DNA of 64,000 bases from Novipirellula herctigrandis (GTDB taxonomy: Bacteria; Planctomycetota; Planctomycetia; Pirellulales; Pirellulaceae), in NCBI GenBank assembly GCA_007859835.1, contig SJPJ01000001.1, positions 4,693,078-4,757,077 on the forward strand. The letters are read 5' to 3'. The translations under genes and the position numbers were made by a program. Positions 7,438 to 64,000 of the stretch are shown one piece after another (position 1 is the stretch's first letter; each line of letters begins with the position of its first letter). The notes under the pieces are model-generated. The model saw only the letters and a list, made by a program, of their open reading frames with translations. It made no database searches and was not told the DNA's origin.

Positions 7438-7591
7438 GAGCGTTTAATTGAATCGAGCATGATTAAAGTTTCGCGGGAACTTTGAGCTTAGATCATCCAA
7501 TTAGAGTTGCTGTGTTCGCCAAAAAACGGAATTGCCTCTCGATGTTTTAGGCGGTTTATCTTCACGAGGTGTCTCCGCATCTAGCAAGGGA

Positions 7592-10500
7592 ATGTTCAAG
7601 GTGAAAATTCGACGTAGCGGTGCTGAATCACGACGCTCTTTCAACTCGCGACATCGGCGTCGCTTGCTAGTCGAACCCCTGGAAGAACGTCGGCTATTGG
7701 CTGTCTATTTTGTTGACAACACCGGCGGAAGCGACACGAACAACGGACTGAGTTTGGGCGCCTCATTTGGCACCATTCAGCGAGCCGCCAATCAAGCCCA
7801 ACCGGGCGACACGGTTCAAATTCGAGGTGGTACTTATCGTGAAACCGTCACGCTACCTCGGTCCGGTAGCAGTGCGGCCCCAATCGTCTTCAAACCGTAC
7901 AACAACGAAGATGTCGTCATATCAGGTGGCGAGCTAGTGACTGGATGGACCCAGTACAGTGGCGATATTTGGCAAGCCAATGTCAATTGGGATGCTGGCG
8001 GTAACGCGGATGGCAACACTCTGTTTGTTGGCGGTGTGATGCAACAGGAAGGACGCGAGTACTCTTCCTTTGCGTCTCGCACCAGCAACGAGGGTGACCT
8101 GCTTGACATTAACGAGTGGGGGCAGATCCCCCAAGGAGCTGTGACGCCTACCAGCTTCACCTCCAACGATGCAAAAGGCTGGGGAGACGACTACTGGAAT
8201 GGAGCGAGAGTCCGCTTCCATACCAAGGACTGGATCATCGAAGATGAGTTGATCACCGACTACGCATCCTCTTCGGGAAAGATATCGTACGCGGACGTTG
8301 GCACGATTTCGCAGAAACAAGTTCAAGGTTTTTTCATCTACGACACGCTCAAGACGGTCGACCAAGAAGGCGAGTGGTTTAAGGATGGCGACACGTTGTA
8401 CTACCAAGCCGCATCAGGCCAGGATCCCAACTCGCTTGATATCGAATTCAAACTGCGTGGCTACGGGTTTGACGCCGACAGCCGCGACCACATTCACATC
8501 GAAGGGATCACCTTTCGCGGCGTCAGTATCGACACCGATTCCAACACCGATTCCAACATTTACCAGGGCAACACGTTCTACGCCTATGACCGGGCCAATG
8601 TCGGCAGGTTCTATATCACGGGCGACGATAACATTTTCCGCGACAACGAAGTCTCGCACACCTGGATCAGCGGCATTACCATCAATGGCGAACGCAACTC
8701 ACTGATCAACAACTACATTCACGATATCGGCTACAACGGAACGGCGCGTACAATCGTGATGAGCGGCGCGGAGCATCTATTTAGCCACAATACCGTGAGC
8801 AAATTCGCGAGGAGTGTTTTCGACGGCTACCCATCGCGCAGCGAGATCGCTTACAACGTTTTTGAAGACGGCGGACGATTGTCCTACGACACGGGCGTTT
8901 TCGACAGCGACGGTGGAAATGGAAATAACAGTTTCTCGATCTTCCACCACAACGTGTTTCGCAACACGGACTCTCGCGGGATTATGGAGGCCTTCTACGG
9001 GAATAATAACAATGCGGTAATTCACCACAACATCATCTACGACTTCCAAAACGGCAGCCGCAGTTTTACCGCGAATGGCTCGGATTTCCGCCAGGTCTAC
9101 CACAACACCATCATCAACACCTCACCTCCGGACGGTCTTCGCTCGGATTCCCCCGACCCTGATGCCATCATCCAAACTCGGTACAACAACAACCTGCAGA
9201 TATCGCTAAGTGACATGGAGGCTCTTGGCGTTGATATGCGAGGCAATCACAACTATTCCTCGTCCGACTTTGTTAACTTTAATGGTAAGGACTTTCGCCT
9301 AGCCGCAGGGTCCGATGCAATCGATATCGGTGTCGTGCTGCCCGGTGTCAACGATGGTTACTCCGGGGCCGCGCCTGATGCTGGGGCTCTTGAGTTCGGT
9401 GAGAGCATGTGGGCCGTCGGGCATGACTTCGTTAACAAGCCCACACCCATCTATGCATGGGAAGCCCTCCCCGGCACGAATATTTACACAAACAGTCAAT
9501 TCAATCAGGGCATCGCCGACTGGACGATCGTTTCCGGTTCGCCCAATTCCGCTGATCGCAACTCGTGGAACCTCAGTAGGGAAGGCAATTCTCTGACTGG
9601 ATTCATCCGCACCCAGAGCGTCGAATTTACGCCTGGTGAGGCAATGAGCCGCGAATTTACGGGCCTAACACCGAACACCACCTATACCGTTGGGGCTGGT
9701 GCCAGAATCATCAACCAAGTCACGGTAGGCAGTCAATTTGACGCTTCCTCCGGTTCGGTATCGACGGGAATCTACCGCGACGAACGATTTGCAACCGGAC
9801 TGTCCAGCGGCGAGTGGGTCCGCTACGACAACATCGATTTCGGGGATGCTGGTCAATTTGATCTGATCGAGGTGCTTTATACCCGAGCGGCATTGAACGA
9901 CTCGATTGCAGATGTAGAAATCCAAATTCGCCTCGACAGCCCAACGGGACAATTATTGGGTGAGTTCGTCGATCCGAAAGACGACCCGGGCCAAAATTGG
10001 TTTCGAAATCGAGGCGACTTGCCTACCATTTCGGGAAGCCACTCGATTTATATTTCTGCAAGCGGGAGCAACTCCGTCAATCTGGCGGTCGGCCCCGTAA
10101 GGCTGCTCAAGGAGACGCCTCCTGCAAGTGATAAGCTTACCGCGACCGCCCAGTCCAGTGGCACACCGACAGTGAGCTCGCCGATCGGATGGACCGACTG
10201 GCAACTCGGTTACGAGACGTTTGCCTTCAAGACCGGGCCGAGTGCGACTAGCGCGACCATTACTTTTTCAAATAACGGTCGCATCAACGCTTATCTCGAC
10301 CGACTTTTTTTAATCGAGGGCGAACTTCGTACGGGCATCAATCTAGCGTATACCGACGGAATTGCCTCGCAATCGACGACTGAAGTCAGCATGTCGGCGT
10401 CCAATGCAACCGACCAAGATCCGTTGACTCAGTCGCAAACGCTAGCAACCGACAATAACAGTTGGTGGCAAGTGCGGTTCCCCAAAGATTTTTCCATCGG

Positions 10501-13500
10501 CGAGATTGAGCTGTTCAATCGCGACAATGCCTCCTACACCGAACTCAGCAACTTCACCGTTTCGATCTGGAACGAAGACCCCGACAATGGTGGTAGCAAA
10601 CTCTGGGAAAAATCGTACTTAAGCAATGGCAGTGTGAACCGTGGTGGATCATTACGGATCACCGGCGGGGAAATTGCTGACGGCTCGACGTTACACTTGG
10701 CGACGGTACTTGGACGGGTCGTCCGTGTGCAACTCAATGGGCATAACAATGACGGCAACGGAACATTGTCGCTTGCGGATGTACGGGTTGTAAGCAGCGA
10801 CAAGGCCAATCCGATTGCCAACGTCGCGCTGTCAGGAACAGCAACCCAATCGAGCAACCACTACTACACACACGGATTCGCCGACACTGCGATCAACGGC
10901 ACGGTAGACCCGGCAGCTGAATTCACTACCACGCAAAACTCGTCGCAACCGTGGTGGCAAGTCGACCTTGAGCAAACAACCGAGATCGATCAGATCGTCC
11001 TGTACAATCGCCAAGATGCAGCGGACCGACTTGGCACCTTCCGAGTGTCTGTTTGGAACGGCGATCCAACGTCTGGTGGGACCGAGGTTTGGGGGAAGAA
11101 CTACTCGTATTCAAGCAGCGCCCCAGCCTTATCCACGACTTCCATTGGCCCCGGTGGCGGGCTGTTGATTGACGGTAGTGTTACCAGTGGTGGCACACGA
11201 CTCGATGAAGTGACTGACGGGCAATTCGTACGAGTACAACTCACGGGATCGAACTTCTTGTCGCTCGTAGAAGTCCAAGTGTGGAAAGCTGGCACCGTTA
11301 TTGACGCCAATGCACTCCAATACAATTACGATCCTGGCACCTCCGCAGCAATCTTCCCCGGCTCGCAACTTCTTGCGCCCAATGTCACCGGAGACATCTC
11401 TTTCACAGGAACCGTGGACGCTGTCGATCGAGGCAGCTCGTCGGGTAACGCCTATAATCGCGATTTCGTTCGCGGAACGACACCCGCGATTTTCAATCAT
11501 CGAATCGCCAATGGACGTTATCGCGTAACCCTGAACATGAGTGATCCGAGCGTTTCATTGGACAACATGTATGTGCAAGGTGAAGGTGTTGTCCTAGCAA
11601 CCAACATTGATCGCCCAATCGGCCAAAACGGAACGATGTCCTTGGAGGTCGATGTCACTGACGGTCAGCTAAATTTGGAATTTGGCGATGCCGACACGGT
11701 CAATCCCCTATGGGTAGTCAACCGAATCGTTTTGACTCGGATCCCGAACGGATCGCCTGCAATCGACCCCAACGGTGGCGTGGTTGATGAGGGAACCGAA
11801 GCCACGTTTACCAACCCTGACGACGTAGGCACCATCTACTACACCACCGATGGTTCGGACCCCAAGTTGCCCGACGGCAACATCAACCCCAATGCGGCGA
11901 TGGCCGGAGGCACAGTCACAACGATTGTGAATCTCCAAGACTTTGATGGCGTAACGGCACCGGCAATCCCCTCACAATGGACAGCAACGACAACCAATTC
12001 CGCAAGCAATTGGACGACCAATTCGTCTGCGAGTGATGGTGGACTCAACGGTGTTTCGGTAAACAACACCAGTCAAACGGCCGATGTGCGTTTGACATCC
12101 GCCCCGTTCGCGGTCGAAGCGAATAGCAGGCAAATCAGCTTCCGCAATTCTTACAATGTCGAAAGCACATACGACGGTGGGGTGTTGGAGATTTCCATCG
12201 ACTCGGGAACGTTTGTTGACATCCTGGCAGCGGGCGGGAGCTTCGTGGAAGGTAGTTACAACCAAACGATCAATGCGAGTTATGGCAATCCGCTTGCAGG
12301 ACGTCAGGCTTGGAGCGGCAACTCGAATGGATTCATTGATACCGTCGTCAATCTCCCAGCGACAGCAGTTGGTTCGGATGTGCAACTTCGCTGGCGGTTT
12401 GGCTCAGACAATATTGTGGCTGGTAGTGCTTGGGCGATCGATACCATTGAGCAAACCGTTGAAGAGATGTTCCCAGGTACCGTTGCAATTACCGAGGACA
12501 TGACGATCACCGCGCGAACTTTGATTGGCAACGTTTGGTCCGGTACCGCTCAGGCGTCGTTTGCGTTGACGCAACCCGCGACGATAGAAAGTCGATTGTT
12601 GTTTTACAACAACAGCGATTTCGACGGGAATGATTCCGCTGCGAACACCGCCGATGAAGGTGCAATCGCATCAGACAAACAGGCGTTATTACCAGGTCAA
12701 AATGCCAGCTTTGCAAACTACACTAGTTACAGTCGCGGCGTAAACGGGATCATAATTGACATCGCCAACCTGCCTGCGAGTGGATTGTCAGCGGATGATT
12801 TCACATTGCGTGTGGGCAACGATAGCGACACCAGCACGTTCACGGACCTGGAAATCGTTCCTGGTTTTTCGAGGCGTACCGGTGAGGGGGCTAATAGCAG
12901 CGACCGAATTACCTTGACGCTGCCCGATAAAGCCGTTGTAGGAAAGTGGTTGCAAGTCACGGTCAAGGCCAACGAGAACACAGCGTTGGAAACTCCCGAC
13001 GTGTTCTACTTTGGCAATGCTCCTGGCGAAGTCGGTAACAGTACGGACGATACCTCGGTCAGCAACGCGGATGTTTTGAAGATTCGTTTGAATCGAACCG
13101 CTGGCGGTACCACGGTGGACTCTACCAGTCCCTACGATATCAATCGTGATCAAATCGTATCCAACGCCGATGTGCTGCTTGCTCGACTAGGCCGAACGAC
13201 CTCCGAGGCTGAACTGAAACTGATCACTCCGAGCGGTGCAAGCAACTTCAGCAGTATTGTTGGCGTCTCTGCGTTGCAGGCAACCGATACCAATGCCGAC
13301 GGTGTCGTATCGGCAATGGACGCATTACTGGTGATCAATCATCTCAGCGGGTCAACCAACAATACGTCAGGCGAAGAAACAGCGTCCCAAGAAAAGTGGA
13401 GTCATTTGGACGTTGACGGCAACGGTCATGTCACGGCATTAGATGCTTTGATGGTGATCAATGAAATGAACCGTTCGCAGACCAATCCAAACTCATCCGT

Positions 13501-13603
13501 CAGCCAATCCCCGCAAGCGTTTGATCTTGCCCTTCGGGATCTGCAGTCCGAGGACGAAGAAGATGACATCCAATTGCTCGATTCACGACTCGACTCGGTG
13601 TAG
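7592..13603 (+). CDS. Giant LEPR-x-LL surface protein: beta-helix, carbohydrate-binding, dockerin
   Basis: 2003-residue surface protein. A basic N-terminus carries the EPLEERRLL motif (residues 28-36), the planctomycete LEPR-x-LL type signal. Next comes a right-handed beta-helix domain (about 40-600) resembling pectate lyase/chondroitinase-B folds, with many Asn-rich rungs. It is followed by a CBM6-like domain (about 710-835), two discoidin/F5-8 type-C-like domains (about 915-1070 and 1072-1233; WWQVD in the second, WWQVR in the first), a malectin-like domain (about 1243-1385) and a chitobiase C-terminal-like domain split by an insertion. The C-terminal cassette (1662-2003) has dockerin-type Ca-binding repeats (DTNADG, DVDGNG). 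Binding or degrading polysaccharide outside the cell is the likely role. ATG 7592 is chosen over TTG 7532 because AAGGG precedes it and the basic signal region begins there. Confidence 0.85.
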   Translation: MFKVKIRRSGAESRRSFNSRHRRRLLVEPLEERRLLAVYFVDNTGGSDTNNGLSLGASFGTIQRAANQAQPGDTVQIRGGTYRETVTLPRSGSSAAPIVFKPYNNEDVVISGGELVTGWTQYSGDIWQANVNWDAGGNADGNTLFVGGVMQQEGREYSSFASRTSNEGDLLDINEWGQIPQGAVTPTSFTSNDAKGWGDDYWNGARVRFHTKDWIIEDELITDYASSSGKISYADVGTISQKQVQGFFIYDTLKTVDQEGEWFKDGDTLYYQAASGQDPNSLDIEFKLRGYGFDADSRDHIHIEGITFRGVSIDTDSNTDSNIYQGNTFYAYDRANVGRFYITGDDNIFRDNEVSHTWISGITINGERNSLINNYIHDIGYNGTARTIVMSGAEHLFSHNTVSKFARSVFDGYPSRSEIAYNVFEDGGRLSYDTGVFDSDGGNGNNSFSIFHHNVFRNTDSRGIMEAFYGNNNNAVIHHNIIYDFQNGSRSFTANGSDFRQVYHNTIINTSPPDGLRSDSPDPDAIIQTRYNNNLQISLSDMEALGVDMRGNHNYSSSDFVNFNGKDFRLAAGSDAIDIGVVLPGVNDGYSGAAPDAGALEFGESMWAVGHDFVNKPTPIYAWEALPGTNIYTNSQFNQGIADWTIVSGSPNSADRNSWNLSREGNSLTGFIRTQSVEFTPGEAMSREFTGLTPNTTYTVGAGARIINQVTVGSQFDASSGSVSTGIYRDERFATGLSSGEWVRYDNIDFGDAGQFDLIEVLYTRAALNDSIADVEIQIRLDSPTGQLLGEFVDPKDDPGQNWFRNRGDLPTISGSHSIYISASGSNSVNLAVGPVRLLKETPPASDKLTATAQSSGTPTVSSPIGWTDWQLGYETFAFKTGPSATSATITFSNNGRINAYLDRLFLIEGELRTGINLAYTDGIASQSTTEVSMSASNATDQDPLTQSQTLATDNNSWWQVRFPKDFSIGEIELFNRDNASYTELSNFTVSIWNEDPDNGGSKLWEKSYLSNGSVNRGGSLRITGGEIADGSTLHLATVLGRVVRVQLNGHNNDGNGTLSLADVRVVSSDKANPIANVALSGTATQSSNHYYTHGFADTAINGTVDPAAEFTTTQNSSQPWWQVDLEQTTEIDQIVLYNRQDAADRLGTFRVSVWNGDPTSGGTEVWGKNYSYSSSAPALSTTSIGPGGGLLIDGSVTSGGTRLDEVTDGQFVRVQLTGSNFLSLVEVQVWKAGTVIDANALQYNYDPGTSAAIFPGSQLLAPNVTGDISFTGTVDAVDRGSSSGNAYNRDFVRGTTPAIFNHRIANGRYRVTLNMSDPSVSLDNMYVQGEGVVLATNIDRPIGQNGTMSLEVDVTDGQLNLEFGDADTVNPLWVVNRIVLTRIPNGSPAIDPNGGVVDEGTEATFTNPDDVGTIYYTTDGSDPKLPDGNINPNAAMAGGTVTTIVNLQDFDGVTAPAIPSQWTATTTNSASNWTTNSSASDGGLNGVSVNNTSQTADVRLTSAPFAVEANSRQISFRNSYNVESTYDGGVLEISIDSGTFVDILAAGGSFVEGSYNQTINASYGNPLAGRQAWSGNSNGFIDTVVNLPATAVGSDVQLRWRFGSDNIVAGSAWAIDTIEQTVEEMFPGTVAITEDMTITARTLIGNVWSGTAQASFALTQPATIESRLLFYNNSDFDGNDSAANTADEGAIASDKQALLPGQNASFANYTSYSRGVNGIIIDIANLPASGLSADDFTLRVGNDSDTSTFTDLEIVPGFSRRTGEGANSSDRITLTLPDKAVVGKWLQVTVKANENTALETPDVFYFGNAPGEVGNSTDDTSVSNADVLKIRLNRTAGGTTVDSTSPYDINRDQIVSNADVLLARLGRTTSEAELKLITPSGASNFSSIVGVSALQATDTNADGVVSAMDALLVINHLSGSTNNTSGEETASQEKWSHLDVDGNGHVTALDALMVINEMNRSQTNPNSSVSQSPQAFDLALRDLQSEDEEDDIQLLDSRLDSV

Positions 13604-13722
13604 TGCGGTGCGACCACAAGCGTAGCGAGCTACCGCTCGGAGTGCGTTCGCCCGCTACCGTTGGTCGCTAGAATCGTGTCATGAAAACACCAATTCCAGC
13701 GATAACGGGTGTAGGATTCATT
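12574..13722 (+). repeat. 1149-bp direct repeat, copy A
   Basis: Identical to 17423-18571 (offset 4849 bp) except for one base, C at 13690 versus T at 18539, by line-by-line reading. It encodes the last 342 residues of the beta-helix protein and continues 119 bp past its stop codon. It contains no transposase and no terminal inverted repeats were seen. Unit boundaries are sharp: flanking sequence is unrelated on both sides. Confidence 0.97.
13610..13668. other. Stem-loop in 3' flank, copy A
   Basis: GCGACCA and TGGTCGC bracket a 45-nt interior that itself contains the hairpin GTAGC-GA-GCTAC. It lies 7 bp after the stop codon. No T-run follows, so it may be a factor-dependent terminator, an mRNA stabiliser or part of a dispersed repeat. 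The same element recurs at 18459-18517 inside the second repeat copy. Confidence 0.5.
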
Positions 13723-14183
13723 AACTGTTCGAGACATGCGGACGCGAAACAATGCGTCAAGTTGCCGCACTCGGGTTCCAACTGTCATCAAATAACCACT
13801 TGAACAACGTGAAACGGCGAAAGGCAACGAATACGGCTGGCATAGGGTTTCCTCTTTCCTCACATTGTCAACAAATTGGATTGACCAATACCGTGCCTCC
13901 CACGACAATAGTGGCATTGGTGAAGACGTTGAGTAGTCGCCGTGGTGGGTTGAATTGCCTGTGCAAAAAGAAAGCGACGATCTTATCTGACAACAGAACA
14001 AGTTACCCTCTTCTTTCCTCGCCTTGCTGGTCCTGTGCCAACGCTATTTTGATTGCCGTCATGGCTACATTTTAACTTTCCACTATTTCACACTTCCAGC
14101 GTTCATGTTGTTGTCGCCAACTCGTCCATTCATTCAATCCCAACAACGCTAGTCATTGCACTTGCGTGCGCTACACCCCAAAC
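13723..14183. other. Intergenic region between two surface proteins
   Basis: About 460 bp following the end of repeat copy A. Short frames on both strands (13630-14001 minus, 13752-14075 plus) have unusual residue composition and no motif, so they are not called. The promoter of the metzincin gene should lie here; none was convincingly seen. Confidence 0.35.
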
Positions 14184-17100
14184 ATGTTCATGCTTAACCC
14201 TCGTAACAATCGTCACTCTTCTTCTGCGTTTCGTAAAGCTGAATCTGGACAATCTCAGCGACTTCGAAAAAGGAAATTTGGATATTTCCAAGCGTTAGAG
14301 GCGCGGCAACTACTGACAACGCTTTTGGTTGACGGATTCGCAGTGAATTGTCCCGAGATTGAGACGATCCAAGCTGGCGTCGAAAGTGTCACGATACCCG
14401 CAAGCGATCTGGTCGTATCGGTTTCGAATAACGACGCGATAGAGCAATCGCTTGAATCTCAATCGGTTGTTAGTACCGACAAGAAAGACTCGAACGATCA
14501 AGTCGATGCACTGGCATTGCCGAGTGATTTGCCATCAAGTTTCTCTGTGTCGATTGAGTATTCCGGTGAAAGGCTGACACTTCATCTTGAAAAGAATTCG
14601 ATCTTTGGAGAGAACACGAGGTTTCTGGTTGATAATGGCAGCGGCACCTTGGTTCAAGTCGATGCTGGTGCGGATCGTTCTTACCTTGGCAAAGTTGTAG
14701 AACATCCGGAATTCGATGTCAGTGCACTGCTTACTGCCGAGGGTCTCAAGGCCAATATTATTCGGCCGAATCAAAATTCTCTTACCATTGAGCCATTGGA
14801 GAATTCGTCTCCGAGCGGAATCCACAAAATCTCCGTAGCCGAAGGAGTGGATTTTGATGACGAATGTGATCACGATGAAAATCATGATGATGAAGTAGCT
14901 GCTGCAATGGCTGTAGACCCCAGCGTTGACGCCAATGCAACGCCGATTGTGAGTTCAAATTATAGCGAGGTCACCTCTTCAACGATCCCCTCGACGTCAG
15001 CCGCTATGAGCTCAGGAGCGACACTTCCGCCCACCAAAGTGATGGACGTGCTTGAGTATGAGATTGGTGTAGAGATTGGCTCGGCCGCATTATTAAACAA
15101 TTATTCCGGCACTACCGTTGAGCAGAAGGTAGCGAGCGCGATGGCCGAGGCGCAAAAGATCCCTGGCAACCTCGATGCCCGTTATCTGCGTTCCGCGGGC
15201 ATCAAGTACCGCTTGGGCACGGTCATTATCCGTACCGGCAGCGATCCGTTTTCCGTCAGCAACGGCAATGACAGTTCCGGCCTTTCGGCCTTCCGCAACT
15301 ACTGGAATAACAATCCTCAGGAGGTCGGAAACACCCACGACCTAGCGGTGTACCACGTGCGTTCGTCTCCCTCAGGCCTCGCGTATGTCAACAGCGTCGG
15401 CACGAGCAATCGATATGCGCTCACCGCAAGTAATGGTCCCAGCAGTTGGGCTGACGGCACCCTCGCCCACGAATTCGGTCACTCTTGGAATTTGCGGCAC
15501 ACAAGTGATTCCGGGTTCTTCTATGAGTCAAAACCTAGAGATAATTCAGGCACCGACGAGGCAGGGGGTTCTGAAGTATTTGTCAGCATCATGCACGGTG
15601 GCGGTGACCACAATATCGGCAGGCTGGCCTCAGCTGAAGCGGACGAAGTCTACAAAATACGCAATCAAAAGCGATCGTATGGGACTCCCTATACCCCAGG
15701 AGCAGTTGCTCCATTTGGTCATAATGACACAGCGGTGGTTAGCAGTTCCGCGAGAATCCTAGACGTCATTGCAAACGATTACGACGTCAATAACGATGTG
15801 CTTGATGTTCAGTTGCTCGATACGGTCAGCCAAAAAGGAGGGACCATAAGTCTTTCGGTTGGCACTGGGCCCGGCGGTAGAAACGAGATTCTTTACACTG
15901 CGCCCGCCGGCGTAACGGGAGAAGACTTCTTTCACTATACGGTTTTTGACACCTCTGGCAAAACCGATTTTGGGGCAGTTAACATCACGATCCCCGACCC
16001 CGTTACCGTTGATTTGACACAAACCGTCTACAATTATGATCCAGGCACAGACACGTCTCCGGTTTTTTCGGGCGCAACACGCCTGACGTCTGGTGTCCAG
16101 GGCGAAGTTTTCTTTAGTGGCGGTGACGTGAGCGGAGTGGACCGAGGGGACATCTCGGGCGTTAACGCTTACAACCGTGACTTCATTCGCGGGACATCCC
16201 CTGCGACGTTTAACCATCGGGTCGTCAATGGACATTATCGTGTGACGTTGAACATGAGTGACCCAACCGGCTCGCTGGACAACATGTTCGTGAGTGGTGA
16301 AGGCGTGACCTTGGCATCGGACATTGATCGACCGGTTGGCACGAACGCGACATTCAATGTCGAAGTGGATGTCGTGGATGGTCAATTGAATTTGGAATTC
16401 GGAGATGCCGATACAATCGACCCCGCATGGGCGGTCACCCGAATCGTCGTCACACAGCAATATCCCTTCGTTGATCTAACACAGACCGTCTACAATTATG
16501 ACCCTGGCACAGATACATCCCCGGTGTTTTCGGGCGCAACGCGTCTCGCGCCAGTGTACCAAGGTGAAGTCTACTTTAGTGGCGGAACGGTGGACGCGGT
16601 GGACCGAGGAGATCTCTCGGGCGTCAACGCTTATAATCGAGATTTCATTAGCGGAACAGCGCCAGCGACATTTAACCACCGAGTCATAAACGGGCAATAT
16701 CGTGTGACATTGAACATGAGTGATCCAATCGTCGCATTGGACAACATGTTTGTGCGTGGCGAAGGTGTGACCTTGGCCTCGGATATTGATCGGCCGATTG
16801 GCACGAACACAACGTTCACAGTCGACGTCAATGTCTACGATGGTCAATTGAATTTGGAATTCGGAGACGCCGATACAGTTGATCCAGCTTGGGCGGTCAC
16901 CCGAATCGTGTTGACGCAACAAGACGTTTTCGAGGATCCCACGGTCGTTAACCTGACCCAAACGAGTTATCGCTACGATGTGCAACCTTATGGGCTGTCT
17001 ACTTTTGATTCCACCTATGTGCCGCTCACTGACAAGGTCAATGGTGATATCTATTTCACCAGTTCCGTGGCATCGATCGATAACGGTAGCGCTCCTGGAG

Positions 17101-18452
17101 CGAATGGACTAAACCGTGATGGAATTTTCATCACCAGTGGCTCGATGACATTGGAACACAAAGTTGCTGATGGCGTTTATGACGTGTTGGTAACGGTGGG
17201 AGACCTCAACCACGCGATGGACGACATGGTCGTTTCGGCCGAAGCTGGTGCCGTTGTGTCAACAAGTATGTCCACCAACGCTAACCAATACTTGAACACA
17301 TTTGCCAATGGTGTCGCGGTATCCGACGGATCCCTTTCATTAACCTTCACCGCAGAAGGGGGAACAAACGATCGCTTCGCAACGACGCGTATCATCATTA
17401 CTCGAACGGGCGATTTGCCTACACCCGCGACGATAGAAAGTCGATTGTTGTTTTACAACAACAGCGATTTCGACGGGAATGATTCCGCTGCGAACACCGC
17501 CGATGAAGGTGCAATCGCATCAGACAAACAGGCGTTATTACCAGGTCAAAATGCCAGCTTTGCAAACTACACTAGTTACAGTCGCGGCGTAAACGGGATC
17601 ATAATTGACATCGCCAACCTGCCTGCGAGTGGATTGTCAGCGGATGATTTCACATTGCGTGTGGGCAACGATAGCGACACCAGCACGTTCACGGACCTGG
17701 AAATCGTTCCTGGTTTTTCGAGGCGTACCGGTGAGGGGGCTAATAGCAGCGACCGAATTACCTTGACGCTGCCCGATAAAGCCGTTGTAGGAAAGTGGTT
17801 GCAAGTCACGGTCAAGGCCAACGAGAACACAGCGTTGGAAACTCCCGACGTGTTCTACTTTGGCAATGCTCCTGGCGAAGTCGGTAACAGTACGGACGAT
17901 ACCTCGGTCAGCAACGCGGATGTTTTGAAGATTCGTTTGAATCGAACCGCTGGCGGTACCACGGTGGACTCTACCAGTCCCTACGATATCAATCGTGATC
18001 AAATCGTATCCAACGCCGATGTGCTGCTTGCTCGACTAGGCCGAACGACCTCCGAGGCTGAACTGAAACTGATCACTCCGAGCGGTGCAAGCAACTTCAG
18101 CAGTATTGTTGGCGTCTCTGCGTTGCAGGCAACCGATACCAATGCCGACGGTGTCGTATCGGCAATGGACGCATTACTGGTGATCAATCATCTCAGCGGG
18201 TCAACCAACAATACGTCAGGCGAAGAAACAGCGTCCCAAGAAAAGTGGAGTCATTTGGACGTTGACGGCAACGGTCATGTCACGGCATTAGATGCTTTGA
18301 TGGTGATCAATGAAATGAACCGTTCGCAGACCAATCCAAACTCATCCGTCAGCCAATCCCCGCAAGCGTTTGATCTTGCCCTTCGGGATCTGCAGTCCGA
18401 GGACGAAGAAGATGACATCCAATTGCTCGATTCACGACTCGACTCGGTGTAG
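14184..18452 (+). CDS. LEPR-x-LL surface metzincin protease with malectin-like repeats
   Basis: 1422-residue surface protein. The basic N-terminus carries LEARQLLT (residues 38-45). A metallopeptidase domain spans about 275-505: HEFGHSWNLRH supplies three His ligands (429, 433, 439) and E430, and SIMHGG is a plausible Met-turn, so it is a metzincin. A cadherin-like/tandem domain (about 506-602) follows, then three malectin-like domains about 150 residues each (608-757, 761-912, 920-1074), the first two closely similar (TVYNYDPGTD) and related to the single one in the upstream neighbour. The C-terminal 342 residues are identical to that neighbour and contain dockerin-like EF-hand loops. Start: ATG at 14184, with ATG 14190 and GTG 14166 as alternatives. 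An extracellular protease anchored to surface glycan is the likely role. Confidence 0.85.
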   Translation: MFMLNPRNNRHSSSAFRKAESGQSQRLRKRKFGYFQALEARQLLTTLLVDGFAVNCPEIETIQAGVESVTIPASDLVVSVSNNDAIEQSLESQSVVSTDKKDSNDQVDALALPSDLPSSFSVSIEYSGERLTLHLEKNSIFGENTRFLVDNGSGTLVQVDAGADRSYLGKVVEHPEFDVSALLTAEGLKANIIRPNQNSLTIEPLENSSPSGIHKISVAEGVDFDDECDHDENHDDEVAAAMAVDPSVDANATPIVSSNYSEVTSSTIPSTSAAMSSGATLPPTKVMDVLEYEIGVEIGSAALLNNYSGTTVEQKVASAMAEAQKIPGNLDARYLRSAGIKYRLGTVIIRTGSDPFSVSNGNDSSGLSAFRNYWNNNPQEVGNTHDLAVYHVRSSPSGLAYVNSVGTSNRYALTASNGPSSWADGTLAHEFGHSWNLRHTSDSGFFYESKPRDNSGTDEAGGSEVFVSIMHGGGDHNIGRLASAEADEVYKIRNQKRSYGTPYTPGAVAPFGHNDTAVVSSSARILDVIANDYDVNNDVLDVQLLDTVSQKGGTISLSVGTGPGGRNEILYTAPAGVTGEDFFHYTVFDTSGKTDFGAVNITIPDPVTVDLTQTVYNYDPGTDTSPVFSGATRLTSGVQGEVFFSGGDVSGVDRGDISGVNAYNRDFIRGTSPATFNHRVVNGHYRVTLNMSDPTGSLDNMFVSGEGVTLASDIDRPVGTNATFNVEVDVVDGQLNLEFGDADTIDPAWAVTRIVVTQQYPFVDLTQTVYNYDPGTDTSPVFSGATRLAPVYQGEVYFSGGTVDAVDRGDLSGVNAYNRDFISGTAPATFNHRVINGQYRVTLNMSDPIVALDNMFVRGEGVTLASDIDRPIGTNTTFTVDVNVYDGQLNLEFGDADTVDPAWAVTRIVLTQQDVFEDPTVVNLTQTSYRYDVQPYGLSTFDSTYVPLTDKVNGDIYFTSSVASIDNGSAPGANGLNRDGIFITSGSMTLEHKVADGVYDVLVTVGDLNHAMDDMVVSAEAGAVVSTSMSTNANQYLNTFANGVAVSDGSLSLTFTAEGGTNDRFATTRIIITRTGDLPTPATIESRLLFYNNSDFDGNDSAANTADEGAIASDKQALLPGQNASFANYTSYSRGVNGIIIDIANLPASGLSADDFTLRVGNDSDTSTFTDLEIVPGFSRRTGEGANSSDRITLTLPDKAVVGKWLQVTVKANENTALETPDVFYFGNAPGEVGNSTDDTSVSNADVLKIRLNRTAGGTTVDSTSPYDINRDQIVSNADVLLARLGRTTSEAELKLITPSGASNFSSIVGVSALQATDTNADGVVSAMDALLVINHLSGSTNNTSGEETASQEKWSHLDVDGNGHVTALDALMVINEMNRSQTNPNSSVSQSPQAFDLALRDLQSEDEEDDIQLLDSRLDSV

Positions 18453-18571
18453 TGCGGTGCGACCACAAGCGTAGCGAGCTACCGCTCGGAGTGCGTTCGC
18501 CCGCTACCGTTGGTCGCTAGAATCGTGTCATGAAAACATCAATTCCAGCGATAACGGGTGTAGGATTCATT
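17423..18571 (+). repeat. 1149-bp direct repeat, copy B
   Basis: Second copy of the cassette at 12574-13722. It encodes the C-terminus of the metzincin protein and continues 119 bp into the downstream region, where the single mismatch (T 18539) is found. The stem-loop at 18459-18517 is included. Identity of synonymous positions and of non-coding flank shows that the copies are recent or kept identical by gene conversion. Confidence 0.97.
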
Positions 18572-59205: not shown

Positions 59206-62200
59206 ATGACGAGAATGAACTGGCCACCTTCTTGGTTCGCAAACGATACACGCATCACCAAACGATCGAAGCATCGCGGCAAGAAAATCCGTCGACCGCT
59301 GCGTTCACGCGCCATCTTGCTCGAATCGCTCGAAGGCAGATTGTTGCTGACCGGAAACGGCGGCTCTTTGCTTCCCATAGCCGAGAATAACCTGGCGGTC
59401 GTCGACATCGATGATGTCGGGTCCGTGGTTTCCGGGCCCGGCAGCGAGTACGCCATCAGCGGTGGTGCGGATCAATTACAGTTTACGATTGATCAGACGA
59501 CCGGAGAGTTGTCATTCCTAAGCGAACCCAACTTCGAAGTTCCAACCGATTCCGATAACGATAACGAATACGACGTCGAAGTGACGTTGACCGACGCAAC
59601 CAACGCGTCGGATTCGATTCTCTATTGCGTTGTCATAACGGATGTGAATGAGACTCCGTCGGCCGTGGCAAATGGTCCTTACGCAGTTCACCTCTCCGAA
59701 AGCTTGACCTTAGATGCGACCGGGTCGATCGATCCCGATCAAGGCGATTCGGTCCATTTCGAATGGGATCTTGATAGTGATGGAAACCCGGATGTCATTA
59801 CTTCAAACATCGTCACGACGATAGAGGCATCCGTTTATACGCCACTCACTGGTACTGGCGAGAATACGATTTCGCTGAGTGTGTTCGACTCACAAGGACT
59901 TGTCGCAACCGACACCGCAAACCTTAATGTCTCGACGACCTTCGCCTTTTCTCCTACAGCAGACCTGACCGACGATACGTACTCGTTAGTTCGCAGTGGA
60001 GACAATTTTGAAATTCGCGATTCATCAAATGGAATCTCGCTTGCAAGTGCGCCGGTGGCGTTGGTCGAACACATTCAAGTGAGTGGATCGGATGATTCTG
60101 AAACGCTTACGATTGACTATTCAGGTGGCATGATCAATGTGCCTATCCGTTTCGACGGAGGCCACCAATCCGTCACAGGCGATGCGTTGGTTCTCGAAAA
60201 CGGGGTCGCTGACACGATCGATTTCGGTTATCTGAACGAGCACGATGGCTCCGTCGCGATCGACGGATCCACGATTACCTACACCGGACTAGAGCCAATC
60301 ACGTCGTTGATTACGGCCGTCAATGTGGTACTGAATTTTAGCAATACCGCCGAAACGATCACGACGACCGATGCTGGCGTTGGCATGACGAATGTTGACT
60401 CAACGACTGGCGAAACGACGACCTTTGCCAATCCGACGGGAACTTTGACCATTAACACCGGTGCCGGACCCGATATCGTCAACGTCGAAGGCGTTGGAAC
60501 CGGCTTTAATGCCGATTTTGTGATTAACGCTGCTGCTACCGATTCGATAAACTTCCAAACCAACGCAACCGACATCGGCACTGGAACGTTGTCAGTCGAA
60601 GCAGGATCAATCCAAGTCGATGCCATTGTGGATGCAGCATCCGTCAAGTTGGTAGGCAACGATACTATCGCGATCGGTGCCGATATTACCGCGACCACGA
60701 ACATCGTACTCCACGGCGGAACTGATGGAACGGGATCCATCCAATTCTCTTCGGTAGGCGTGAACTTATCATCTGATACCATCGATTTACGTGCAGGCGA
60801 CGGTACCGGTGGCACAGGAACGCTTTCATCGATTGATGTAAATACCAACTTGCCGATGTTTCGCAACAGTGCTGGTACCGCAGCACCCGACACGTTCAAT
60901 TATCGCGTCGATGCAACGATTCTTGACACCGACTTGCCGGATGCAACCCAATTCGCCGGAGCTGCCTTGCCAACTAACTATGGTTTGCAATCCGATGATG
61001 GCGACGTTTCCATCACGTCTGGTGCCGCCGCATTAAAGACCGCCGGTGCAAACCTCACAATTACGACCAACAGCCTCGACAACGCCGTCACACTGACGGG
61101 AAATGGTATCCAGGCTGCCGGCAGCATTGTTGTGAATACCGGCGACGGAGCCGATACATTAACGCTGGACTTTGCTGCGGGAAACCCAGTGCCGCTCGGT
61201 GGACTGACATATAACGGCCAAGGAGACAACGGCGCACCGGGCGACAACCTTGTGCTCAACGGGCCAAATGTCAACGGCATCGCTGCAACCACCATCACAC
61301 ACACTTTCAATAACGAAAATGATGGATCGGTCGAGATCATAGCGGGGATCGAAACCGCGACGATTAACTATACCGGTCTTGAACCGATTGCCGACAACTT
61401 GAGTGCCACCAACCGCATTTTCACCTTCAACGGCGGTGCGGAGACAATCACCGTTTCTGATGATGCGGTTTTAAACAACAATCTTTCGATGATCGATTCG
61501 ACACTCGGTGAAATGGTCGTGTTTGTGAATCCAACAAACACAATGATAGTAAACGCTGGAAGCGGCAGCGATGTTGTAAACGTGGATGGCATCGATGGCC
61601 TTTTTGCCGCGACGACCACCATTAACGGCGACGCTGGAGATGACACGATTCGCATTTCTGCGCCATTCACCGCAACTCTTAACGGTGGCGATGATAATGA
61701 CACATTCGATATCGATGCGGCTTTGACCGGAACTATCAACGGTGAAGCTGGCATTGATACGCTCCAAGGTGATTTGATTGTCAACGCAACGCTGACCAAT
61801 TCCGATGCCAACGGATTTGACGGCACGGCGGATGGCGTTAGTGGCGGATTCAACGATATCGAAACGTTGATCGGCATCGGCCCAGGAACATTGACGGGCG
61901 AGAATCTGGACGCGACTTGGGCTCTCAATGGCACGCCGACTTATACGGAAGGCGCCGACTCGTTGAACTTTGGCGGTTTCGCCACGCTACAAGGTGGATC
62001 TGCAAGTGACACGTTTAATGTGACCGCTCCGAGCACGTTCGATCTAAACGGTGGTGGTGGCAATGACAGATTCGATATCGATGCGGCTTTGACCGGAACT
62101 ATCAACGGCGAAGCAGGCAGCGACACACTCCAAGGTAATTTGATTGTCAACGCAACGCTAACCAATTCCGATGCCAACGGATTCGACGGCACGGCGGATG

Positions 62201-64000
62201 GCGTCAGCGGCGGATTCAACGATATCGAAACGTTGATCGGCATCGGCCCAGGAACATTGACGGGCGAGAATCTGGACGCGACTTGGGCTCTCAATGGCAC
62301 GCCGACTTATACGGAAGGCGCCGACTCGTTGAACTTTGGCGGTTTCGCCACGCTACAAGGTGGATCTGCAAGTGACACGTTTAATGTGACCGCTCCGAGC
62401 ACGTTCGATCTAAACGGTGGTGGTGGCAATGACAGATTCGATATCGATGCGGCATTGACCGGAACTATCAACGGTGAAGCAGGCATTGATACGCTCGAAG
62501 GTAATTTGATTGTCAACGCAACGTTGACCAATTCCGATGCCAACGGGTTCGACGGCACTGCAGATGGCGTTAGTGGCGGATTTAACGATATCGAAACGTT
62601 GATCGGCATCGGCCCAGGAACTCTGACCGGTGAAGATCTGGACGCGACTTGGGCTCTCAATGGCACGCCGACTTATACGGAAGGCGCCGACTCGTTGAAC
62701 TTTGACGGCTTCGCCATGCTGCAAGGTGGATCTGCAAGTGACACGTTTAATGTGACCGCTCCGAGCACGTTCGATCTAAACGGTGGTGGTGGCAATGACA
62801 CATTCGATATCGATGCGGCTTTGACCGGAACTATCAACGGCGAAGCGGGCAGTGACACGCTCCAAGGTGACTTGATTGTCAACGCAACGCTGACCAATTC
62901 CGATGCCAACGGATTCGACGGCACGGCAGATGGCGTCAGCGGCGGATTCAACGATATCGAAACGTTGATCGGCATCGGCCCAGGAACTCTCACGGGCGAG
63001 AATCTGGACGCGACTTGGGCTCTCAATGGCACGCCGACTTATACGGAAGGCGCCGACTCTTTGAACTTTGACGGCTTCGCCATGCTGCAAGGCGGCACGG
63101 CGATCGACACGTTTAATGTCTCTATCATAGTAACACCGACGACGCTACTTGGTGGTAGTGGCGATGACCTCTTTAACCTCTCGTCCGACGCACCAATAAA
63201 CAACGGCAATGTTGACGGTATCGCAGCGGCCTTGACGATCGAGGGCGAAAGTGACACGGACGTCCTGAATATTAGTGACGAAGGCGGCGCAGCAGATGCA
63301 AGTGGATTATTAACTTCGACGACGATTACAGGACTCGGTAACGCAGGTCCGATTACGTACGCCACAATCGAAACATTAAACTTGGACCTCTCCGATGCGG
63401 GTGACGATACGCTAACGATCGCCAGCACTCATGGTGGAACAACAAACATTGATGCGGGAATGGGCAATGATATCGTCAATGTGCAGACAACGACCACCGG
63501 TAGCACAACCACAATTAGTGGGAGCGAAGGCAATGACACTTTCAACCTCGGTTCCTCCACGAACCTGTTAAACGGCATTTTGGGTCAAGTCATTTTCAAC
63601 GGCAACGCGAATCTTGCCACTCCGACGACGACCGACAGTGTGGCCACAAAAGGCAACACGGCGACTCGGACGTTGCCAGTCGGCGATACGTTGAACCTGT
63701 TTGACCAAGGTTACAACGCGGCGGCCCAGTACAACTTGTCCGACGGCATGTTCAATCGGGACACCACGGTTGCACCGACGATGTTCGCAACGGTGGAAAC
63801 CATCAACCTACTGGCGGGCCAAGCGGCAAACGACATCAATGTGCTCGACACGACCGATAACACGAAGACCACGATTATTAGCCAAGACGTGGCGGATGAC
63901 ATCGATGTCACGCTAACCGGCGACGGCAGTGTCTTGATCATCAACAGCGCCGGCGGCAATGACTCGATCGACATCGCCACCACGGGCGCTAACAGCGTCA
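59206..64000 (+). CDS. Giant LEPR-x-LL surface protein with 122-residue repeats (partial)
   Basis: Open frame of 1598 codons that runs off the window end. The N-terminus is basic with LESLEGRLLLT at 39-49, the LEPR-x-LL type signal. A cadherin-like domain (about 60-155) and a PKD-like domain (about 160-245) follow, then many Gly/Asp/Asn/Thr-rich beta segments. From about residue 825 four 122-residue repeats occur, each with an RTX-like GGGGND motif and a NGEAGxDTL motif; they look like Ca-binding beta-rolls. The TTCACC before ATG 59206 gives no good Shine-Dalgarno, but the signal begins there. Adhesin or surface-layer function is inferred. The 3' end and sorting tail are outside the window. 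Confidence 0.9.
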   Translation, partial: MTRMNWPPSWFANDTRITKRSKHRGKKIRRPLRSRAILLESLEGRLLLTGNGGSLLPIAENNLAVVDIDDVGSVVSGPGSEYAISGGADQLQFTIDQTTGELSFLSEPNFEVPTDSDNDNEYDVEVTLTDATNASDSILYCVVITDVNETPSAVANGPYAVHLSESLTLDATGSIDPDQGDSVHFEWDLDSDGNPDVITSNIVTTIEASVYTPLTGTGENTISLSVFDSQGLVATDTANLNVSTTFAFSPTADLTDDTYSLVRSGDNFEIRDSSNGISLASAPVALVEHIQVSGSDDSETLTIDYSGGMINVPIRFDGGHQSVTGDALVLENGVADTIDFGYLNEHDGSVAIDGSTITYTGLEPITSLITAVNVVLNFSNTAETITTTDAGVGMTNVDSTTGETTTFANPTGTLTINTGAGPDIVNVEGVGTGFNADFVINAAATDSINFQTNATDIGTGTLSVEAGSIQVDAIVDAASVKLVGNDTIAIGADITATTNIVLHGGTDGTGSIQFSSVGVNLSSDTIDLRAGDGTGGTGTLSSIDVNTNLPMFRNSAGTAAPDTFNYRVDATILDTDLPDATQFAGAALPTNYGLQSDDGDVSITSGAAALKTAGANLTITTNSLDNAVTLTGNGIQAAGSIVVNTGDGADTLTLDFAAGNPVPLGGLTYNGQGDNGAPGDNLVLNGPNVNGIAATTITHTFNNENDGSVEIIAGIETATINYTGLEPIADNLSATNRIFTFNGGAETITVSDDAVLNNNLSMIDSTLGEMVVFVNPTNTMIVNAGSGSDVVNVDGIDGLFAATTTINGDAGDDTIRISAPFTATLNGGDDNDTFDIDAALTGTINGEAGIDTLQGDLIVNATLTNSDANGFDGTADGVSGGFNDIETLIGIGPGTLTGENLDATWALNGTPTYTEGADSLNFGGFATLQGGSASDTFNVTAPSTFDLNGGGGNDRFDIDAALTGTINGEAGSDTLQGNLIVNATLTNSDANGFDGTADGVSGGFNDIETLIGIGPGTLTGENLDATWALNGTPTYTEGADSLNFGGFATLQGGSASDTFNVTAPSTFDLNGGGGNDRFDIDAALTGTINGEAGIDTLEGNLIVNATLTNSDANGFDGTADGVSGGFNDIETLIGIGPGTLTGEDLDATWALNGTPTYTEGADSLNFDGFAMLQGGSASDTFNVTAPSTFDLNGGGGNDTFDIDAALTGTINGEAGSDTLQGDLIVNATLTNSDANGFDGTADGVSGGFNDIETLIGIGPGTLTGENLDATWALNGTPTYTEGADSLNFDGFAMLQGGTAIDTFNVSIIVTPTTLLGGSGDDLFNLSSDAPINNGNVDGIAAALTIEGESDTDVLNISDEGGAADASGLLTSTTITGLGNAGPITYATIETLNLDLSDAGDDTLTIASTHGGTTNIDAGMGNDIVNVQTTTTGSTTTISGSEGNDTFNLGSSTNLLNGILGQVIFNGNANLATPTTTDSVATKGNTATRTLPVGDTLNLFDQGYNAAAQYNLSDGMFNRDTTVAPTMFATVETINLLAGQAANDINVLDTTDNTKTTIISQDVADDIDVTLTGDGSVLIINSAGGNDSIDIATTGANSV
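61678..63141 (+). repeat. Four tandem 366-bp repeats in giant surface protein
   Basis: Units begin at 61678, 62044, 62410 and 62776, spaced exactly 366 bp, and are nearly identical in nucleotide sequence in the last three; a diverged fifth start lies near 63148. Each encodes LNGGGGND-FDIDAAL and a shared 122-residue module. Probable products of unequal crossing-over. Confidence 0.95.

Follow-up and report, generated by a model that had tools for sequence, protein, structure and literature searches.

The shared block at two neighbouring genes

The window analysed here, a stretch of 64,000 nucleotides from the Novipirellula herctigrandis genome, carries two neighbouring genes for giant, secreted multi-domain proteins that end in almost the same sequence. 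Gene 1 (7532–13603; 2023 residues from the predicted start) has a β-helix-like head with CBM_6 and F5/8 domains, and gene 2 (14166–18452; 1428 residues from the predicted start) has an M12 (Reprolysin_5) head, a Big_9 domain and repeats of ~150 residues. Both terminate in a dockerin tail, both reading frames are open, and these genes and all their features described below lie on the forward strand. A base-by-base comparison placed the two copies of the shared block at 12574–13722 and 17423–18571 (offset 4849), with a sole mismatch in 1149 bases, at 13690 versus 18539. Outside both edges, similarity is at background level immediately, and the left edges of the two copies have the same codon phase and an equal reading frame.

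The block comprises a tail of 342 residues with a Dockerin_1 domain, followed by a 115-bp mobile repeat that adjoins the stop codon and resembles a repetitive extragenic palindrome (REP). It extends 119 bp past the stop codon in each gene, and its last 8 bp (13715–13722 and 18564–18571) lie beyond the repeat. The comparison confirmed the block, its single differing base and its length past the stop as described in the first-pass annotation of this DNA, and bore out the proposal there that a duplication or conversion took place very recently. Beyond the stop the identity, which had been counted with non-coding positions, is real, although it belongs mostly to the mobile repeat and not to an ordinary 3′ flank. 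Four bases common to the two window copies of the repeat are present in none of 16 other aligned copies, which argues that a single inserted repeat was copied along with the tail. At the mismatch, 13 of these 16 copies agree with copy 2, and the simplest account places the change in copy 1.

The tail module and the heads

The tail modules, stop codons included, span 12575–13603 in gene 1 and 17424–18452 in gene 2, with Dockerin_1 domains at 13283–13471 and 18132–18320 (E = 1.3e-14 and 9.4e-15 for the two tails). In the same genome, the tail protein matched 32 places at E up to 0.001. Besides the window pair, these were 30 places with 31–47% identity, and in 28 of the 30 the match begins no earlier than tail residue 206, close to the dockerin or inside it. 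Among the 30 loci fetched of these 32 places, the further near-identical copies of the block for which a genome-wide search had been proposed did not turn up, and no second near-identical tail pair was found, other pairs at 100% being overlapping stretches of one place. Of 149 genomes of the family, 54 (this one counted) gave a hit with E no higher than 1e-10, which began within the first 55 residues in 27 of them and only nearer the dockerin in the rest. Among the best 25 rows from other genomes, 24 began at tail residue 1–7, which places the left edge of the block at the natural boundary of the module. The view of different heads on one tail module was upheld.

The anchoring role that had been assigned to the tail was not supported. 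No cohesin (PF00963) match was obtained in the genome at E up to 0.001, in a search whose control found the domain in one of 14 genomes, and dockerin–cohesin anchoring was rejected for lack of a cohesin. The C-terminus of the tail is acidic, with no sortase or membrane signal evident by eye, and comparison of the tail with solved structures yielded only two hits, both weak (E = 0.05) and located in the dockerin part.

The heads had been described as completely different. They do differ in their main domains: head 1 matched solved structures of parallel β-helix proteins (E = 1.7e-8 to 1.6e-6), including 3vst and 5mqp, which we take to have that fold, and head 2 has its Reprolysin_5 domain at 15096–15533. 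The difference is not complete, since a domain of ~150 residues is common to both, once in gene 1 (residues 1244–1403; 11261–11740) and as two tandem copies in gene 2 (residues 615–764 and 756–918; 16008–16919), with 60–62% protein and 72% DNA identity between the genes. Within gene 2, the internal tandem duplication of this domain (16007–16768) has 79–81% DNA identity. No orthologue of either head came up in the congeners G001 and G002: head 1 matched G001 at residues 59–631 only, with 30% identity, and G002 not at all, and head 2 matched neither.

Near-identical tails on neighbouring genes of relatives

Tail copies with other heads, as expected of a swap-in module, were seen in relatives, again on neighbouring genes. 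In the congener G001, two neighbouring same-strand genes have tails with 96.9% identity over 635 bp. In G083, which belongs to another genus, there are two neighbouring pairs, with 96.3% over 766 bp and 98.5% over 203 bp, the latter a stretch that ends at the contig end. In all three pairs, the tail start is where similarity sets in, and the sequences ahead of it differ. The heads of a G083 pair comprise glycosyl hydrolase, lectin and cadherin domains versus FG-GAP and RTX repeats, and one gene of the G001 pair has an endonuclease/phosphatase-type and lamin-tail head.

Within-genome tail pairs were compared over the first 450 bp of the tail, and genes within 15 kb of each other were taken as near. 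The ten near same-strand pairs had identities of 100 (the window pair), 98.6, 98.0, 94.8, 79.2, 75.3, 66.7, 65.5, 64.7 and 63.2%. Pairs at least 94% identical thus accounted for 4/10 of the near same-strand pairs (3/9 without the window) versus 0/45 of the other within-genome pairs, which comprised 42 distant pairs (maximum 88.1%) and three near opposite-strand pairs (64.9–67.7%). Two G083 tails, L309 (on C42) and L311 (on C15), are 88–89% identical, one of them on a 7-kb contig and the other near a contig end, and because of these positions the distant pair with 88.1% may be a hidden neighbour pair.

G083 and G121, two species of one genus, share neighbouring genes A and B, the heads of which are orthologous at the protein level (A–A 88% over 285 residues; B–B 84% over 749 residues). 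The DNA identities of the tails are 95.6% for G083 A–B, 81.0% for A–A, 70.4% for B–B, 80.6% for G083 B with G121 A, and 72.2% for G121 A–B. In a tail tree, four other tails pair across the two species, whereas G083 A joins G083 B (support 100/99) and G121 A joins G121 B less firmly (92/94). The approximately unbiased (AU) test rejected a B–B clade (p = 0.00013) and an A–A clade (p = 0.008); head orthology was known before the tail tree was built, and the tree had been seen before the AU tests. The tails of G083 and G121 do not track the orthology of their heads. The DNA of the heads is ~80% identical between the species, and the two G083 tails must therefore have acquired their 95.6% identity after the species split, most simply with A as the source of the copy. 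The G083 A–B tract stops 11 bp ahead of the stop codon, unlike the window block.

The mobile repeat at the stop codons

The two window copies of the repeat lie at 13600–13714 and 18449–18563, and in each the left GTAG overlaps the TAG stop. The unit consists of 111 bp plus GTAG, and both ends were GTAG in 14 of the 17 full-length copies chosen for alignment. A BLAST search of the same genome (E up to 0.1) gave 18 further matches beyond the window pair. A covariance model found at least 21 copies in this genome with the window pair included, a lower bound as 150 of 2758 candidates were scored, at least 42 in G002 and at least one in G001. Tandem copies in G002 have the GTAG between neighbours in common. 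At the end of metK, this genome has CCGCG-TAG followed by the repeat, and G002, with a protein 94% identical, has CCGCG-TAG without it, as does G001 (one locus examined). Because of this empty site in a congener, the repeat is regarded as mobile.

Among unique copies with a resolved left end, 19/33 have GTAG as the left tag, and the base ahead of the tag is C in 30/33, the window pair (counted once) being among the exceptions. The start of the repeat coincides with a stop codon that closes a frame of 100 codons or more in 10/33 resolved copies and in 7/19 GTAG copies, compared with 35/501 other GTAG sites of the flanks. The genes concerned presumably include metK, pgi, a DUF1559 protein gene and an SLC13-like transporter gene. 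Given these stop-codon starts and the counts of the tag context, GTAG sites that overlap TAG stops look like harmless landing sites for the repeat.

A scan of named genomes, with that of the window left out, found at least 118 stretches that contain the repeat core, and planctomycetes account for all 80 titles listed. Just upstream of the core lies a hairpin, the stem pairing of which is kept with different letters: a perfect stem of at least 5 bp is present in 77/117 copies versus a mean of 7 and a maximum of 14 in shuffles. In a set of 41 rows, 35 of which had been selected because the hairpin was present, changes on both sides of a pair occurred in 43 cells versus 11 in shuffles; two of the five covariation measures (the number of pairs changed on both sides and the number of pair types) were not above shuffles. 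Covariation appeared only in this comparison across planctomycetes, as RNAalifold on 18 copies from the genome itself gave weak structure and no compensatory pairs. Rfam gave no match at the gathering score in the window or in ten named loci that hold the core, and at E up to 10 gave three weak and irrelevant matches in 12400–14200; a known RNA element was rejected on the lack of an Rfam match. An association of the repeat with Y1 transposase genes, as in systems mobilised by a REP-associated tyrosine transposase (RAYT), was likewise rejected, as none of the 12 Y1 transposase loci of the genome had a BLAST match of the repeat within about 1.5 kb; one of them, L057, had only two repeat matches, at the mismatch limit.

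Outside the genus of the window, matching end tags were more frequent than in permutations for 3-mers (54/75; permuted mean 36.2) and 4-mers (22/75; 12.8, p = 0.005) and not significantly so for 5-mers (6 versus 3.7), and given this last result no target rule is claimed there. The comparison of repeat ends did not separate target-site duplication from IS200-like insertion. Besides the window copies, repeat loci include L003, L019, L020, L021 and L023, as well as the named loci L136–L253. One copy in G002 (L042, on C16) is flanked on either side by CTGCCGTAG, which exceeds the usual shared GTAG in length and may be a longer target duplication or chance. At L012 and L006, degenerate reiterations of the first bases of the repeat (GTGCGGTGCA and GTAGTGCGGTGC) stand just upstream of full copies. 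In the literature searched, the letters of the core matched no paper text, and text searches for Rhodopirellula with repetitive extragenic palindromes, or with miniature inverted-repeat transposable elements (MITE) as intergenic repeats, gave no match.

Origin of the shared block

We consider it fairly probable that the window block, dockerin tail plus inserted repeat, was copied as one unit between neighbouring same-strand genes by gene conversion. The REP-like repeat would first have inserted at the stop codon of a tail-bearing gene, after which homologous recombination between tail modules would, very recently, have copied tail and repeat together. Since near-identical tails on neighbouring genes recur in G001 and G083, the window pair probably has the same kind of origin as the pairs of the relatives. 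Gene 1 was probably the donor and gene 2 the recipient: the gene 1 domain ahead of the tail (residues 1462–1640; 11915–12451) also stands ahead of related tails in proteins of G168 and G159, and the C-terminal 486 residues of head 2 matched at E up to 1e-4 in none of 27 tail-bearing loci taken with about 1.5 kb upstream.

Several observations weigh against conversion. Six of the ten near same-strand pairs (63–79%) are not near-identical, and a rank test gave only p = 0.021 with the window pair and 0.0496 without it, for pairs that are not independent within one genome. The G001 heads have a stretch of 181 residues in common, with 43% identity. The tracts also end differently, 11 bp ahead of the stop codon in G083 C26 and 129–141 bp ahead of it in G001, whereas the window block passes the stop, the repeat and a further 8 bp. 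Furthermore, the tail is absent from a relative of head 1 (in G137) and from relatives of head 2 (in G137, G163 and G089), which fits a fresh addition of the tail equally well; the G089 protein aligned only to residues 925–1325 of gene 2, with 29% identity, and the tail alone as query gave no match to it. For the window pair, the data are compatible both with conversion and with a first-time transfer.

A possible though less likely course is a single recent duplication, in which a gene 2 devoid of the tail received the tail and 3′ end of gene 1 once, by illegitimate recombination or template switching, with no ongoing homogenisation. The tailless relatives of head 2 agree with this, as do the right edge 8 bp past the repeat, with no similarity beyond it, and the finding of only one near-identical tail pair in the genome; it leaves unexplained the recurrence of near-identical tails on neighbouring genes and the tail pattern of G083 and G121. 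It is quite improbable that the repeat itself carried the tail, through a one-ended mobilisation that brought the neighbouring gene end into gene 2 as well. The mobility of the repeat family and the finish of the block 8 bp past the repeat would agree with this, yet that edge differs from the repeat's own end, every other copy examined is a bare repeat, and the near-identical tails of G001 and G083 end within the gene, ahead of the stop. Near-identity over 1.1 kb is a usual spot for short-read errors, but an assembly artefact that wrote one tail into both genes is the least likely of all, because each copy has its own flanks on both sides within one 8.58-Mb contig, both genes are complete, one base distinguishes the copies, and the same pattern occurs in other genomes.

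Relation to known systems and significance

Concerted evolution of paralogues by gene conversion is an established process, and the greater likeness of paralogous tails within G083 than of orthologous tails between G083 and G121 agrees with it. The present case differs in that only the C-terminal module of genes with different heads is involved, from the module edge onwards, and in that the window tract adds a mobile repeat past the stop. Among the papers listed, a literature search limited to titles and the starts of abstracts, and hence no proof of absence, brought up no account of gene conversion of planctomycete tails.

For dockerin-bearing planctomycete proteins, a hypothetical 'planctosome' has been put forward, the model of which needs cohesins (PMC6461901). 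Its proteins have the dockerin on large secreted chains, among them an M12-type metallopeptidase, the type seen in gene 2; the cohesins required there were not found in the present genome. For the repeat, the nearest likeness is to GTAG REPs, which are 20–40 bp long and for which Rhodopirellula baltica, a related planctomycete, is named as a carrier of families in PMC3733652. The window repeat likewise has a GTAG tag beside a hairpin and is dispersed mostly outside genes, whereas it is a 111-bp unit between two GTAG tags, its tandem copies share the GTAG, and its long core is conserved across planctomycetes. The hairpin with a short tag and the insertion beside a fixed short sequence also recall IS200/IS605 elements and RAYT, both with Y1 transposases, of which class 3 enzymes occur mainly in planctomycetes, acidobacteria and proteobacteria and have atypical flanking structures, according to PMC6006769; the lack of the repeat around the 12 Y1 loci sets it apart from them.

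Elsewhere in the window, 61677–63074 holds four tandem copies of a 366-bp unit, with 92–94% identity over 300 bp each.

The analysis brought out a mobile repeat family, often on stop codons, that lacks an Rfam match and has its core in many planctomycetes. The copying of tails had been thought a means to diversify surface proteins; the data show instead tails that are made alike. The tail may provide a variety of enzymes and adhesins with one common export or docking step at the cell surface. More speculatively, in what would be a Pirellulaceae-type system, neighbours with varying heads might have their shared export or docking tail repeatedly overwritten by gene conversion that depends on orientation and distance, which would keep the heads matched to one co-evolving receptor, with REP-like elements at the stops hitching along or helping to bound the tract. 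If homogenisation is selected, a single receptor or export machine would be expected for the tail module. The G083/G121 pair implies that tail trees are unfit for tracing whole-gene history. Gene conversion of tails would give a testable account of how giant multi-domain planctomycete proteins are built, in which heads diverge and tails are copied between neighbours.

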